From Sphingomonadaceae bacterium (GTDB lineage: Bacteria; Pseudomonadota; Alphaproteobacteria; Sphingomonadales; Sphingomonadaceae): 42,337 bases of DNA. Location of the stretch: the NCBI GenBank assembly GCA_009920915.1, contig RFZB01000004.1, positions 1-42,337 of the forward strand, given 5' to 3'. This document shows, one piece after another, positions 700-4,935 of this stretch; position 1 is the stretch's first letter; the number at the start of each line of letters is the position of its first letter. A program made the position numbers and the translations under genes. The notes below the pieces were generated by a model. It ran no database searches. It was not told where the DNA came from and saw only the letters and a list, made by a program, of their open reading frames with translations.

Positions 700-797
700 C
701 TTGTTGTGAAGACCTGCTTTCAAACGCTCCTGCAACGGGGTTTGATGCAGCAGGAAATTTGGGGAAGGAGGACGATGTTTCTCCTTCCTCCTTTTTT
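700..797 (+). ncRNA. Candidate structured small RNA with intrinsic terminator
   Basis: The segment has the anatomy of a trans-acting small RNA. A TATAAT box lies at 691-696. The first stem pairs CCTGCT (713-718) with AGCAGG (749-754), then TCAAAC (720-725) with GTTTGA (740-745), leaving a loop containing CTCCTGC. A second stem pairs GGAAGGAG (763-770) with CTCCTTCC (781-788) and runs into TCCTTTTTT, an intrinsic terminator. The CUCCUUCCUCC side could pair with Shine-Dalgarno sequences, and anti-SD loops are known in several alphaproteobacterial small RNAs. It could instead be only a terminator with an upstream hairpin. No family was recognised. Confidence 0.5.
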
Positions 798-824: not shown

Positions 825-838
825 TTGACACAAATCAA
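825..838 (+). promoter_or_regulatory. FNR/FixK-type box upstream of the microprotein gene
   Basis: TTGACACAAATCAA matches the TTGAT-N4-ATCAA consensus of FNR/ANR/FixK regulators at 9 of 10 specified positions. Its last base is 56 bases upstream of the ATG at 895. If bound as a class II activator site centred near -41.5, transcription would start near 873, leaving a leader of about 22 bases that contains the strong AGGAGG at 881-886. No clear -10 hexamer is visible at 860-868. Confidence 0.6.
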
Positions 839-894
839 TGACGATAGGGCGCCGTTTGCGCAGATCATCCTCCATGCAAAAGGAGGAAGCCCCT

Positions 895-1011
895 ATGTCA
901 CCTTATTTGATGCAAGTCCCCGTTCTCGGTGCATTGACGGCAGCCGCACTATTCACCGTCGTTATGCTGTTTTGCTCGATCACCGATGCCCGCCAAGGTA
1001 AGTCTGAATAA
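895..1011 (+). CDS. Unannotated 38-residue membrane microprotein
   Basis: This short gene encodes 38 residues beginning MSPYLMQVPVLGAL. A hydrophobic segment at about residues 9-28 (rich in A, L, V, F, T) is followed by a polar tail ending in DARQGKSE, so it is probably a single-pass inner-membrane protein. The start is well supported by AGGAGG at 881-886 with an 8-base gap. The stop overlaps the start of the DUF465 gene (TAATG), so the two are likely translationally coupled. An FNR-type box precedes the unit, suggesting induction at low oxygen. I recognise no family; similarly sized oxidase accessory subunits such as CydX or CcoQ do not match by sequence. Function unknown. Confidence 0.7.
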   Translation: MSPYLMQVPVLGALTAAALFTVVMLFCSITDARQGKSE

Positions 1012-1259
1012 TGAGCCATACGCCCCATGAGCTGCGGGATGAATTTCCCGATGCACAAGATATTCTCCATCATTTGAAAACCACCAATGCGCATTTTGCC
1101 GCGCTCGCCGAACGCTATCATGTTGTGAATCGCGAAATTCACCGGATTGAAGCCGAAGTAGAGCCAAGTTCTGATGCCCGGACGGAAGATCTGAAAAAGC
1201 AGCGTCTGTTGCTGATCGATGAAATTTCCCAATGGGTTGAAACAGCAAAGGCCGCCTAA
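1011..1259 (+). CDS. DUF465 (YdcH-like) small helical protein
   Basis: 82 residues, predicted almost entirely helical. The pattern HLKTTNAHFAALAERYHVVNREIHRIE, followed by DLKKQRLLLIDEI near the C-terminus, is typical of the DUF465/YdcH family, whose members are small cytoplasmic alpha-hairpin proteins of unknown role, often tied to stress or growth-rate responses. Its ATG overlaps the stop of the preceding microprotein gene and lacks a strong ribosome binding site of its own, so expression probably depends on coupling. The FNR-type box at 825-838 would control both genes. Family assignment is good; function is unknown. Confidence 0.8.
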   Translation: MSHTPHELRDEFPDAQDILHHLKTTNAHFAALAERYHVVNREIHRIEAEVEPSSDARTEDLKKQRLLLIDEISQWVETAKAA

Positions 1260-1351: not shown

Positions 1352-1750
1352 CTAAGCAAAATCCAAGGGGGGCGTCGTCACATCTTCCCCGTCACGCGCC
1401 TGCGCCCAGCGGCGGGCCTCTTCTAAATTGGCCAGTGGAAAATATTTGATTGTCGCAGGATAGAGGGGCGCAAACAGGTTTGTCAGCGGGGCCACCCAAG
1501 CGGCATCAGACACCAAAGCGGCCCGGCGGAGAAAATGGCGATGCGTGAGGTGAAAGCTCAGGTCTTTCCACCAGACGCTGGGATCAATCCACCCAATGTC
1601 TTGAATGACCTGTACCAGATTGAGTTTCTTGTGACGCACCAACAGCCGATCAATGGCGGTCACCACCTGTGTGTAATCCACATCATGAATAGGGCCTGCG
1701 ACGGTGATTTCCAAAAAGCCGGCTTCTTCGTCTAGCCTGACATCCAGCAT
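1352..1750 (-). CDS. SpoIIAA-like (STAS/CRAL-TRIO fold) protein
   Basis: 132 residues with the layout of SpoIIAA-like proteins (the DUF3478-type family): an N-terminal beta hairpin (LDVRLDEEAGFLEITVAGPI), a helix, a strand NLVQVIQDIGWIDPSVWWKDLSFHL, and a C-terminal PATIKYFPLANLEEARRWAQ segment. Such proteins share the fold of anti-sigma antagonists but usually stand alone, and their role is poorly known. A perfect FNR-type box lies 61 bases upstream of the start codon, with a -10-like TAGTCT at 1785-1790 placed 21 bases downstream of the box, as expected for FNR class II activation. This suggests induction under oxygen limitation. Confidence 0.75.
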   Translation of the reverse strand: MLDVRLDEEAGFLEITVAGPIHDVDYTQVVTAIDRLLVRHKKLNLVQVIQDIGWIDPSVWWKDLSFHLTHRHFLRRAALVSDAAWVAPLTNLFAPLYPATIKYFPLANLEEARRWAQARDGEDVTTPPLDFA

Positions 1751-1811: not shown

Positions 1812-1825
1812 TTGATGTGTATCAA
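1812..1825 (-). promoter_or_regulatory. Perfect FNR/FixK-type box in a divergent promoter region
   Basis: TTGATGTGTATCAA fits the TTGAT-N4-ATCAA consensus at all 10 specified positions. It lies between the SpoIIAA-like gene (minus) and marR (plus). On the minus strand a TAGTCT hexamer (1790-1785) follows after 21 bases, which matches class II geometry and makes the SpoIIAA-like gene the likelier target. On the plus strand the box lies just upstream of a separate sigma-70-like promoter for marR. Confidence 0.7.
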
Positions 1826-1828
1826 GCC

Positions 1829-1856
1829 TTGAAAATAATAAGCACTGCTATATTAT
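1829..1856 (+). promoter_or_regulatory. Candidate marR-emrAB promoter
   Basis: TTGAAA (1829-1834) and TATTAT (1851-1856) are separated by 16 bases. Transcription would start near 1863-1865, at or just before the ATG at 1865, so the mRNA may be leaderless. No Shine-Dalgarno sequence is visible before this ATG, which agrees with that idea. Confidence 0.5.
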
Positions 1857-1864
1857 GCGTGGCT

Positions 1865-2317
1865 ATGACCGAAACGGATAATCTTGGCGCGTTAATCGCC
1901 GACGTATCGCATTTGCTGCGCCGCGCCTTTGACGAACGCGCTCGACACATTGGGCTTTCGCGCCCGCAATGGCGGGTGCTGACAATGCTGCGCCGTCATG
2001 AGGGGATTAATCAGGGCGGCCTTGCCGAGCTGGTTGAGGTAGAGCCGATCACCTTGTGCCGCATGGTCGACCGACTGCAAGAGGCAGACCTTGTTGAGCG
2101 CCGCGCGGACCCAACGGATCGTCGGGCTTGGCGGCTGTTTTTAACAGCGCGGGCCAGCGCCTTGTTAGATGAAATGCGGCCGGTCGCGCTTGGCTTGTTT
2201 GATGAGGCAATGCTGGGCCTTTCCGCCACCGAGCGGGAAGGGCTGATTCATGCCCTGGCGCGTGTGCGCACCAATTTGTCGCGCCGGGCGCCGCAGGAGG
2301 TGATGGCGCATGGCTGA
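1865..2317 (+). CDS. MarR-family transcriptional regulator
   Basis: 150 residues with the winged-helix MarR fold: an N-terminal dimerisation helix (LGALIADVSHLLRRAFDERA), the recognition region SRPQWRVLTMLRRHEGINQGGLAELVEVEPITLCRMVDRLQEADLVERR, and the wing DPTDRRAWRLFLT. It likely represses the emrAB pump genes it overlaps (8 bases with emrA), being released by a small ligand. An upstream GTG in frame at 1817 falls inside the FNR-type box and is an unlikely start; ATG 1865 fits the family's N-terminus. The transcript may be leaderless. Confidence 0.9.
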   Translation: MTETDNLGALIADVSHLLRRAFDERARHIGLSRPQWRVLTMLRRHEGINQGGLAELVEVEPITLCRMVDRLQEADLVERRADPTDRRAWRLFLTARASALLDEMRPVALGLFDEAMLGLSATEREGLIHALARVRTNLSRRAPQEVMAHG

Positions 2318-3380
2318 TCGTGATCCGCAAATTTCTCTGGAGCAGAGCAACGTGCATCCTGTTGAACACCAAAATGGCGTCAAGCGCGCATGGCTGCGCC
2401 CTGTGCTGATGATTTCGGTTCCGCTTGCCCTCGTCGCGGCGGGTGGCGCGTATTACCTTGCCAATGACCATTATGTCTCCACTGACAATGCCTATGTCCA
2501 GCAGGATAAGGTGTCGGTGTCTGCAGAAGTCACTGGCAAGATTGTGGAAGTCTTGGTGCGTGAAAACCAGCCGGTAAAGGCGGGGCAAATATTGTTCCGC
2601 ATTGATCCTGCCCCCTATCGTATTGCCGCAGCGCAGGCAGATGCCACGATTGCGCAGGCGCAGGTGCGCGTCACCACGCTGGAAGCCGATTTCCAAAGCC
2701 GCGGCGTGGGGATTGATAAAGCGCGCGAAGCCGTTGCCTTTTATACCAAAGAATATCAGCGCCAGTCGGCTTTGATGCAAACGGGCTTTACCACAAAGGC
2801 CCGGCTGCAAGAGGCTGAACACGCCCTGTCGGAAGCGCGCAGCCAATTGGCCGCGGCTGAGGCGGAGGCGCAAAAGGCACGTGCTGCATTGGCGACGGGG
2901 GCTGCTGCGCCTGGCGTCAATCCTCAAGTGCTGGCCGGCCAAGTGCAAAAGCAAAAGGCCCTGCTTGATTTGTCGCGCACCGTTGTTCGCGCGCCTGTGG
3001 CTGGGGTGGTCAGCCAAGCAGAGCGGTTGCAAGTCGGCCAGACGATGGTGACTGGCTTGCCTGCGCTGACCATTGTTGCGCGGTCTGGATCTTGGGTGGA
3101 AGCCAATTTTAAAGAGACGGATCTTAATCATATGAAAGTTGGCCAATCGGCTGTGCTGACATTTGATGCCTATCCGTCGATGAAGTTGACGGGCCATGTC
3201 GCCAGCATTGGCGCGGGTACAGGGTCTGAATTTTCGGTGCTGCCGGCGCAAAATGCCAATGGCAATTGGGTGAAGGTCACCCAACGTGTGCCGGTGCGGA
3301 TTGCCATTGATGGTGTTCCCGCGCGTCCGCTGATTGCAGGCCTGTCAACGCATGTCCGCATCGACACAGCCAGCAAATAA
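2310..3380 (+). CDS. emrA: EmrA-type membrane fusion protein of a multidrug efflux pump
   Basis: 356 residues. A cytoplasmic N-terminus is followed by one membrane segment at about residues 30-50 (VLMISVPLALVAAGGAYYLA), then the HlyD family core: biotinyl-lipoyl half-motif YVSTDNAYVQQDKVSVSAEVTGKIVEVLV, a long coiled-coil hairpin (about residues 100-210, rich in Ala, Glu and Gln), and the second half-motif VVRAPVAGVVSQ. It would link the inner-membrane transporter EmrB to an outer-membrane channel, which is not encoded here. The start at 2310 is preceded by AGGAGG and overlaps the marR stop. The substrate is unknown. Confidence 0.9.
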   Translation: MADRDPQISLEQSNVHPVEHQNGVKRAWLRPVLMISVPLALVAAGGAYYLANDHYVSTDNAYVQQDKVSVSAEVTGKIVEVLVRENQPVKAGQILFRIDPAPYRIAAAQADATIAQAQVRVTTLEADFQSRGVGIDKAREAVAFYTKEYQRQSALMQTGFTTKARLQEAEHALSEARSQLAAAEAEAQKARAALATGAAAPGVNPQVLAGQVQKQKALLDLSRTVVRAPVAGVVSQAERLQVGQTMVTGLPALTIVARSGSWVEANFKETDLNHMKVGQSAVLTFDAYPSMKLTGHVASIGAGTGSEFSVLPAQNANGNWVKVTQRVPVRIAIDGVPARPLIAGLSTHVRIDTASK

Positions 3381-4935
3381 CCCGGCTGCCTCGGCAGCGC
3401 CTGTCATGGGCAAGCCCTTGCTGGCGGTTCAGCATAAGGGGCTGTTGACGCTTGCCATCATGGGCGCGGCGATGATCCAGATTCTGGATTCAACAATCGC
3501 CAATGTGGCCATCCCGCATATGCAAACCAGCCTTGGGGCCACCCAGGACACAGTGACCTGGGTCTTAACTAGCTATATTGTGGCAGGCGCAGTTGTGATG
3601 CCCATTACGGGCTGGCTGGCCGACCGAATTGGCTCACGCCAATTGTTCATTGGGGCCGTGATTGGCTTTATCATCACCTCTATGCTGTGCGGCATTGCCG
3701 TCAACTTGACTGAGATGGTGATTTTTCGGGTTTTGCAGGGGGTCTGCGCTGCCTTTATTGCCCCTTTGTCGCAATCCATCTTGCTCGATATCAACCCGCC
3801 TGAACGCGCGGCAAAGGCCATGGCGATGTGGGGTATGGGGATTATGGTGGCCCCCATTTTTGGGCCCATGATTGGCGGCTGGCTGACGCAAAGCTATGAT
3901 TGGCGATGGTGTTTTTACATCAATTTGCCCATTGGCATTCCGGCAGTTCTTATCCTGTTGTGGCTGCTTCCGGGCCGACCGATCAACAAACGATATTTTG
4001 ACGGGCTGGGCTTTGCCGCGCTGGCGCTGGGCGTGGCCACGCTGCAATTGCTGCTGGATCGGGGCCAGCATGAAGATTGGCTGCAAAGCTGGGAAATCCG
4101 CATTGAAGCGATCATTGCCCTTTCGGCCATTTGGATCTTTTTTGTCCATCAAGCGACCACCAAAAAGCCCATGTTTGACAAAGATCTGGTTACCGATCGC
4201 AACTTCACCACCGCCTTGCTGTTCATGGTTCTGATTGGCGTGATGATGTTTGGCGTCTTCGCGTTATTGCCCCCCATGCTGCAAAGCCTGTTTGGCTATA
4301 CCGTGGTGGACACGGGCATGCTGCTGGCGCCGCGGGGCATTGGCATTTTGATCTCGATGATGATTGCAACGCGCCTCGCGGGCAAAGTGGACCCGCGCAA
4401 AATTGTTGGCACCGGTTTTGTGCTGACCATCATCTCGCTTTGGCAGATGACCCAATGGGGCCTGATGATGGATTGGACCTATGTGTTCTGGACGGGGCTG
4501 CTCCAAGGCTTTGGCATGGGTTTTGTGTTCATTCCGATGAACCAGCTGGCCTTTGCAACCTTGCCGATGCGGCATCGCACGGATGGATCAAGCCTGCTCT
4601 ATCTGGTGCGCAGCATTGGCAGCAGCGTTGGCATTTCCATTATGTCGACCATGTTTGCCCGCAATTTGCAGACCAGCCATTCCGATTTGTCCAGCCATGT
4701 GACCTCATCCTCCATGGCCGTCATCGATCCGGCCACGGCAGACCGCTATCAAGTGCTGGGGGAATCTGCGCTGCGCATGGTGGATTTAGAAGTTAATCGT
4801 CAGGCGGCAATGATTGCCTATCTTGATGATTTTCAACTGATGATGTGGGGCTTAATTCTGTTCATGCCCCTGATCTTTTTGATGAAGCCACCCAAGGCTG
4901 GCCCGGGCCAAATGGTCCACCCAGTCGGCGAATAG
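3352..4935 (+). CDS. emrB: EmrB/QacA-type MFS drug transporter (DHA2, 14 membrane segments)
   Basis: 527 residues of the DHA2 family of proton-driven drug exporters. Visible marks are the first helix motif IQILDSTIANVAIPHMQ, motif A variant GWLADRIGSRQLFIG, motif C-like GMGIMVAPIFGPMIGGWLT, and WRWCFYINLPIG typical of EmrB. Multiple hydrophobic helices run to the C-terminus. The likely start is ATG 3352, overlapping the emrA 3' end by 29 bases; ATG 3406 is possible but also lacks a good ribosome binding site. With EmrA it should form a drug, fatty-acid or uncoupler exporter under MarR control. Its stop codon directly abuts the convergent mltG stop. Confidence 0.9.
   Translation: MSASTQPANNPAASAAPVMGKPLLAVQHKGLLTLAIMGAAMIQILDSTIANVAIPHMQTSLGATQDTVTWVLTSYIVAGAVVMPITGWLADRIGSRQLFIGAVIGFIITSMLCGIAVNLTEMVIFRVLQGVCAAFIAPLSQSILLDINPPERAAKAMAMWGMGIMVAPIFGPMIGGWLTQSYDWRWCFYINLPIGIPAVLILLWLLPGRPINKRYFDGLGFAALALGVATLQLLLDRGQHEDWLQSWEIRIEAIIALSAIWIFFVHQATTKKPMFDKDLVTDRNFTTALLFMVLIGVMMFGVFALLPPMLQSLFGYTVVDTGMLLAPRGIGILISMMIATRLAGKVDPRKIVGTGFVLTIISLWQMTQWGLMMDWTYVFWTGLLQGFGMGFVFIPMNQLAFATLPMRHRTDGSSLLYLVRSIGSSVGISIMSTMFARNLQTSHSDLSSHVTSSSMAVIDPATADRYQVLGESALRMVDLEVNRQAAMIAYLDDFQLMMWGLILFMPLIFLMKPPKAGPGQMVHPVGE

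Follow-up and report, generated by a model that had tools for sequence, protein, structure and literature searches.

A family of putatively FNR-controlled single-helix microproteins in Sphingomonadaceae

From the comparison of genomes we conclude that a frame of 38 codons in a Sphingomonadaceae contig is a real gene under purifying selection and that the conserved unit at this locus, as far as its sequence neighbourhood tells, is an FNR-type box together with the microprotein encoded behind it. Control of a real membrane microprotein by FNR is very probable, and the best reading of the alignments is a previously unnamed family of FNR-controlled single-helix microproteins, which would be induced at low oxygen. 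The microprotein looks like an overlooked part of the sphingomonad adjustment to oxygen shortage. Genes of such shortness are readily missed by annotation, and CcoM-type small oxidase subunits, according to excerpts of a published account (PMC9264385), had no such annotation before their discovery in purified complexes. In the present case, genome comparison alone yields a family that combines a fixed regulatory address with a clear residue signature and a link to FNR genes. It would extend the Fnr regulon defined by Sphingopyxis transcriptomics (PMC7713065) and raises the testable question which sphingomonad membrane complex gains an extra helix at low oxygen.

The gene is located near the beginning of the window, i.e. 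the whole stretch of 42,337 nucleotides that was analysed, together with the following features, whose positions all refer to the window.

761 to 797, plus strand: intrinsic-terminator-like hairpin with a T run, just 5' of the FNR promoter
825 to 838, plus strand: FNR-type box TTGACACAAATCAA, centred at 831.5 and ending 56 nt 5' of the ATG
863 to 868, plus strand: possible -10 element GATCAT, seen by eye, identical to TATAAT in four of six bases; its distance to the box suits class II
881 to 886, plus strand: Shine-Dalgarno sequence AGGAGG, 8 nt 5' of the ATG
895 to 1011, plus strand: microprotein gene, 38 aa, product MSPYLMQVPVLGALTAAALFTVVMLFCSITDARQGKSE, based on ORF translation, orthologue alignment and profile
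1011 to 1259, plus strand: DUF465 (PF04325) gene, 82 aa, 50 bits against a gathering cut-off of 25, start overlapping in TAATG
1352 to 1750, minus strand: SpoIIAA-like (PF11964) gene, 132 aa, assigned by Pfam, convergent with the microprotein unit
1812 to 1825, minus strand: second FNR-type box, reading TTGATGTGTATCAA on the plus strand, 61 nt before the SpoIIAA-like start

The frame from 895 to 1011, its AGGAGG site, the TAATG overlap and the FNR-type box had all been claimed in a sequence-only reading of this DNA, and each of them was found in the sequence. The final A of the microprotein stop codon TAA (1009-1011) is the first base of the DUF465 ATG. A second in-frame ATG is present at 874; the start at 895 is favoured because of the conserved MSP start and the AGGAGG site, and a purine-rich Shine-Dalgarno site is retained across the eight aligned genomes. 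The hydropathy of the product, with a maximum of 2.28 in a window of 19 residues, bears out the claimed single hydrophobic helix, which is predicted to span approximately residues 9 to 29 and overlaps with the motif F20-x7-S28-I-x-D31-A32 of the protein. Neither Pfam-A nor NCBIfam holds a model that matches the protein, in agreement with the earlier statement that no known family could be recognised.

We searched 12 genomes of the same genus with a match threshold of E ≤ 1 and detected the microprotein in eight of them, with protein identities of 47-62%; start, frame (34-40 aa) and strict box are kept in all eight orthologues. Two further genomes, G002 and G010, encode a family member at a different locus without DUF465, and no family member was found in G007 (76% complete) and G011 (84% complete). 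Across all pairs of the nine sequences the median pN/pS is 0.47 (largest value 0.68), compared to medians of 1.00 and 1.36 in the shifted frames. Pairs among the three closest sequences (G004, G009 and G001) have values of 0.09-0.17, and those of the same three with G008 amount to 0.20, 0.21 and 0.34. Variability is found at 29 of 32 third codon positions versus 18 of 32 second positions (shuffle P 0.001). The sequence-only reading had tied the gene to conservation of the frame in close relatives and to a bias towards synonymous change, and both hold in these 8 of 12 genomes. Weaker matches from the same search (L010-L020, E 0.096-0.94) were dropped, since 9 of the 11 sit in frames of 104-218 aa; the remaining two, L017 and L019, have frames of 26 and 30 aa.

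The same reading had proposed a two-gene unit, in which the DUF465 protein, a member of the family with the solved relative HP1242 (PDB 1ZHC), is the small partner of the microprotein. Within the genus the linkage stood: DUF465 is located 3' of the microprotein in eight of nine orthologues including the window, the exception being G005, and in seven same-genus relatives the genes are separated by -4 to +9 nt. Beyond the genus it did not, as the genes 3' of the microprotein vary among other genera and no DUF465 gene is adjacent in any of the 35 neighbourhoods from other genera; three of these (G171, G329 and G324) do contain a DUF465 homologue, which is located upstream. A dedicated two-protein module of microprotein and DUF465 could explain why the genes overlap or nearly do so in most orthologues of the genus. 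However, this explanation is very improbable, because DUF465 is not found beside the copies in G005, G002 and G010 or adjacent to those of other genera, and because the window genome has three more DUF465 genes, none of which shares its contig with a strict FNR box. DUF465 was therefore rejected as a dedicated core partner; from its distribution, the DUF465 gene is a lineage-specific second cistron, i.e. a local addition rather than part of the core, which is found directly 3' of the microprotein in the genus of the window only.

The SpoIIAA-like gene on the opposite strand, whose domain PF11964 is described as CRAL-TRIO-like in excerpts of PMC2954212, has an FNR box of its own, and the FNR island at this locus therefore comprises three genes rather than a pair. 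A box 57-60 nt upstream of this gene is also present in G003, G005 and G012, and in G002 the SpoIIAA-like gene and the microprotein diverge around one common box. No such box was found for the SpoIIAA-like gene of G008, and the stretches examined of G001, G004, G006 and G009 revealed no SpoIIAA-like gene.

The claim of an FNR-type box could be confirmed well beyond the window. A strict TTGAYN4RTCAA box precedes not only all eight same-genus orthologues but also 47 of the 50 top family places, the exceptions being G269, G177 and G333. The distance from box to ATG is 64-78 nt in 43 of these 47 and 90, 92, 92 and 103 nt in the others, which is compatible with a short leader. Boxes were visible while the members of the enlarged profile A3 were chosen, which is avoided in a subset of 27 places outside profile building; of these, 25 have a strict box, several sharing genera and not all being independent. 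In a search of the order, all seven new Sphingomonadaceae ORFs have a strict box. Among 14 weak places, both stand-alone ORFs of the family kind are preceded by one; the other 12, which were rejected, have no strict box, three of them having a site with one mismatch. As a background, six genomes that lack a family member (about 17.7 Mb in total) contain 50 strict boxes versus 5 control sites. Downstream of those 50 boxes we found a single small hydrophobic frame, which is GTG-started, of low complexity and scores at most 0.8 bits against the profile.

The genome of the window contains 12 strict TTGAYN4RTCAA sites compared to one for the reversed-pattern control. Two of the 12 are in the window, one is located before ccoN, one before a globin gene and one between HemN-like and UspA-like genes (named by eye; Pfam classifies the HemN-like protein as radical SAM), and seven are in or beside other frames. 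The same genome encodes one full-score regulator of the FNR type, which adjoins ccoN and has the Cys cluster CDSCLVRNRAIC as well as E-x2-S-R. In Sphingopyxis granuli TFA, the published Fnr consensus, derived from the transcriptomes of fnr mutants, is TTGAc/t-N4-g/aTCAA, most Fnr promoters there are of class II and centred near -41.5, and the targets include ccoN, hemN2 and uspA (PMC7713065). The box of the present family is identical to this consensus, and the target types ccoN, hemN and uspA are shared as well. In Table 1 of that study, none of the genes is described as a microprotein of this kind, and one monocistronic entry is an 'uncharacterised protein' (3843). With the box at class II spacing, transcription in the window would start near position 873 and give a leader of about 22 nt; the output of a promoter scan of the window did not include the GATCAT element at 863-868.

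The extent of the family was determined by searching 397 genomes of the same taxonomic family with a profile (A2), which yielded ORFs in other genera, and by repeating the search with the enlarged profile A3. At E ≤ 0.05 the latter detected at least 65 places in at least 63 of the 397 genomes; since up to 19 first-pass candidates were scored in many genomes, misses are possible. All 65 places were inspected and 53 were accepted, 51 of them being intact. The accepted members are single-helix proteins of 29-42 aa from many Sphingomonadaceae genera, with one convincing copy in each carrier genome found, and their distribution is patchy, at least 53 of the 397 genomes being carriers. In G333 the copy is decayed and has no proper start, Asp or box. 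In G236 (L032) the strict FNR box is intact, but codon 7 is followed by an in-frame TAG, so that the copy is apparently broken. This stop and the lack of a box in G269, G177 and G333 indicate that some lineages can do without the gene.

A sample of 296 genomes of the order, the same family included, gave 26 matches, of which 25 belong to the same family and one (G456) was judged false. A sample of 289 genomes of the class gave 10 matches besides the window genome's own, and seven of these, which fall within frames of 178-898 aa and have no box, were dropped. We regard the other three as possible relatives only: G792 (67-aa ORF, strict box), G560 (approximately 116 aa, box with one mismatch) and G789 (39 aa, no box). 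Their peptides, cut to 39-44 residues, outscore all 3000 of their own shuffles, a result to be read with their selection from a large search in mind. The ORF of G792 (L178), a genome from another family of the class, has a family-like start with an FNR box upstream and begins 389 nt 5' of a gene of the PAS type, similar to FixL by eye.

Database searches are in line with a previously unnamed family. For 21 members, no Pfam match was better than E 0.027, and NCBIfam gave one isolated match to TrkH for one member (E 0.0025). With profile A3, four PDB chains were retrieved, the best being the start of complex I subunit NuoA at E 0.49, and were taken as chance, and with profile A4 no PDB chain was obtained at E ≤ 10. 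No plasmid copies were found for two query peptides, and a literature search found no description of this microprotein family.

Profile A4, which comprises 40 members, reveals the residue signature: Phe20, in the middle of the helix, is present in 40 of 40, Asp or Glu at position 31, where the helix ends, in 39 of 40 and Ser or Thr at position 28 in 36 of 40 members; two accepted ORFs, G189 and G489, lack the Asp. The first nine columns contain 1 Lys/Arg and 25 Asp/Glu, compared to 65 Lys/Arg and 58 Asp/Glu from column 31 onwards, and in 39 of 40 members Lys/Arg are more numerous C-terminal than N-terminal of the helix. The orientation of a membrane helix can be read from the distribution of Lys/Arg by the positive-inside rule. 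Since these residues are skewed to the C-terminus, an N-out/C-in helix fits, and the microprotein probably adopts this orientation.

Based on these data we propose that, at falling oxygen, FnrN would bind the box and activate a class II promoter, whose transcript would have a leader of about 20 nt. The microprotein would then insert N-out/C-in, and its Phe/Ser/Asp positions would pack against a respiratory-chain complex integral to the membrane, of which it may be an accessory or regulatory subunit. That such an FNR-induced helix docks on a respiratory complex in the membrane that the carriers share has, in our estimation, roughly even chances. The respiratory nature of the partner would follow by elimination, based on the oxidases that the carriers possess, and by analogy.

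ccoN (E ≤ 1e-20) is present in 235 of the 397 genomes and is somewhat enriched among carriers, with 41 of 53 compared to 194 of 344 non-carriers (Fisher P 0.004, kinship ignored). Twelve of the 53 carriers are nevertheless without ccoN, nine of these 12 being 99-100% complete, and none of 40 neighbourhoods of the microprotein contains a ccoN match. cydA was found in 28 of the 46 carriers searched and is absent from 18, including all nine searched in the genus of the window. Eight carriers have cydA without ccoN, and two carriers of 99% completeness, G119 and G378, lack both genes. Because some carriers lack ccoN, cydA or both, the microprotein is no obligate part of either of the two high-affinity oxidases. 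A link to an oxidase in some lineages is possible in view of the ccoN enrichment and of a copy beside cydAB in G355. Since carriers may possess cbb3 or bd alone, the two together or none of them, the partner would have to be one that nearly all carriers keep; candidates include bc1, complex I, ATP synthase and a constitutive oxidase. Tentatively, and at somewhat less than even chances, the microprotein can be regarded as an FNR-induced subunit or modulator of such a core respiratory complex, independent of cbb3 and bd and perhaps reaching other Alphaproteobacteria, as G792 might suggest.

A close analogue in architecture is CcoM, the 36-aa subunit of the cbb3 oxidase of Pseudomonas stutzeri (PDB 5DJQ), for which a role under oxygen limitation is given in excerpts of PMC10433244. 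CcoM resembles the family in size, in its single helix and in the F-x10-D-A spacing (chain 5djq_N), and an FNR box also precedes ccoN in the window genome. The microprotein could accordingly be a CcoM-like extra cbb3 subunit, encoded off the cco operon and co-induced by FNR. We consider this quite unlikely, as the score of CcoM with the family profile is 1.7 bits, a value that is reached by 776 of 2000 shuffles (1126 of 3000 in another run), whereas left-out members of the family score at least 20.2 bits. Homology to CcoM was rejected on these grounds, and CcoM, which is part of the PDB set searched, was not recovered by profile A4 at E ≤ 10. Moreover, a protein of this kind should accompany ccoN, which the microprotein need not do.

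CydX, AppX and CydH (YnhF), the small subunits of the bd oxidases of Escherichia coli, are likewise similar in size and have a single helix. The sequences of CydX and AppX were confirmed in the PDB set. A role as small subunit of a bd oxidase, like CydX or AppX, would fit the member in G355, whose gene is located just behind cydAB, in the opposite direction. CydX and AppX also score slightly above most shuffles, their 3.8 and 2.5 bits being reached by 46 and 68 of 2000. However, none of the three exceeds 3.8 bits, far from the scores of left-out members, and homology to CydX and AppX was rejected. The place in G355 contains the sole cydA among the 40 neighbourhoods and is equally explained by a divergent FNR gene, and many carriers, as described above, have no cydA at all. 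Therefore, we hold this explanation to be most improbable.

The microprotein might also have no fixed partner and act as a general membrane-active protein that tunes the membrane or metabolism at low oxygen, similar to YohP, an orphan single-helix small membrane protein of E. coli. This would be consistent with the lack of a tie to one oxidase, the varying neighbours, the one convincing copy per carrier and the strong association with FNR boxes. An invariant Phe and a near-invariant Asp at fixed spacing rather suggest a specific contact, and YohP scores 2.4 bits against the profile, so that we regard this possibility as unlikely. Overall, the profile scores of CcoM, CydX, AppX, CydH and YohP range from 1.3 to 3.8 bits. 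One family member matches the NCBIfam model of YohP non-significantly (E 0.18).

The gene content around the family members was surveyed for neighbours that would point to the partner. To this end, 40 neighbourhoods, each spanning at most about 10 kb, were clustered, followed by a targeted search for oxygen genes. Clustering yielded no gene common to most of the 40. The widest cluster, nrdB, whose identity is based on Pfam analysis of two neighbourhoods, is found in 9 of 40 by clustering and in 10 of 40 by tblastn at distances of 0.2-5 kb, and was set aside since it provides no functional lead. FNR-type genes, in contrast to the about 0.1-0.2 expected by chance according to our estimate if a genome has one or two such genes, occur in 4 of 40 neighbourhoods. 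In G355, G149 and G119, which represent three genera, the FNR-type gene is arranged head to head with the microprotein, with 86-129 nt between its start and the microprotein ATG, and the box in between could serve either gene. In G023, an FNR-type gene is located 2.9 kb away, together with a HemN-like gene. The cydA gene of G355 (L140) belongs to an island of at most 10 kb with an FNR box, cydA, cydB, the microprotein in reverse direction, fnr, a HemN-like gene and uspA. Globin genes are present in 3 of 40 neighbourhoods, the copy in G285 being 2 kb away; in G085 (L066) and G304 (L097) the globin gene is found directly 3' of the microprotein, at +2 and -4 nt, respectively.

Some observations concern the borders of the locus in the window. 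The hairpin at 761-797 may shield the FNR promoter from transcription coming from upstream; the terminator scan of the window found 1 such structure compared to a shuffle mean of 1.8. The region 664-797, between lepA and the FNR promoter, is possibly a short RNA gene: an element like TTGTATrAAAACGACA is present there in four of eight aligned relatives, and in the eight aligned genomes a hairpin 3' of it is kept in position and changed in sequence, mostly with a T run (by eye). No Rfam family was assigned to this region; across the whole window the single Rfam match is a tRNA, and near the locus one match falls below the gathering score. The 3' arm of the hairpin, CTTCCTCCTTTT (784-795), is a perfect 12-nt complement of the Shine-Dalgarno region AAAAGGAGGAAG (878-889). 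Pairing between the two could silence read-through transcripts, or the complementarity may be due to chance; by eye, it is not retained in G003. On the other side, genes for a MarR-type regulator, an HlyD-type protein and an EmrB-like protein (by eye; window positions 1817-4935) form an efflux-type operon that adjoins the FNR island, and the box at 1812 also stands before the MarR gene.
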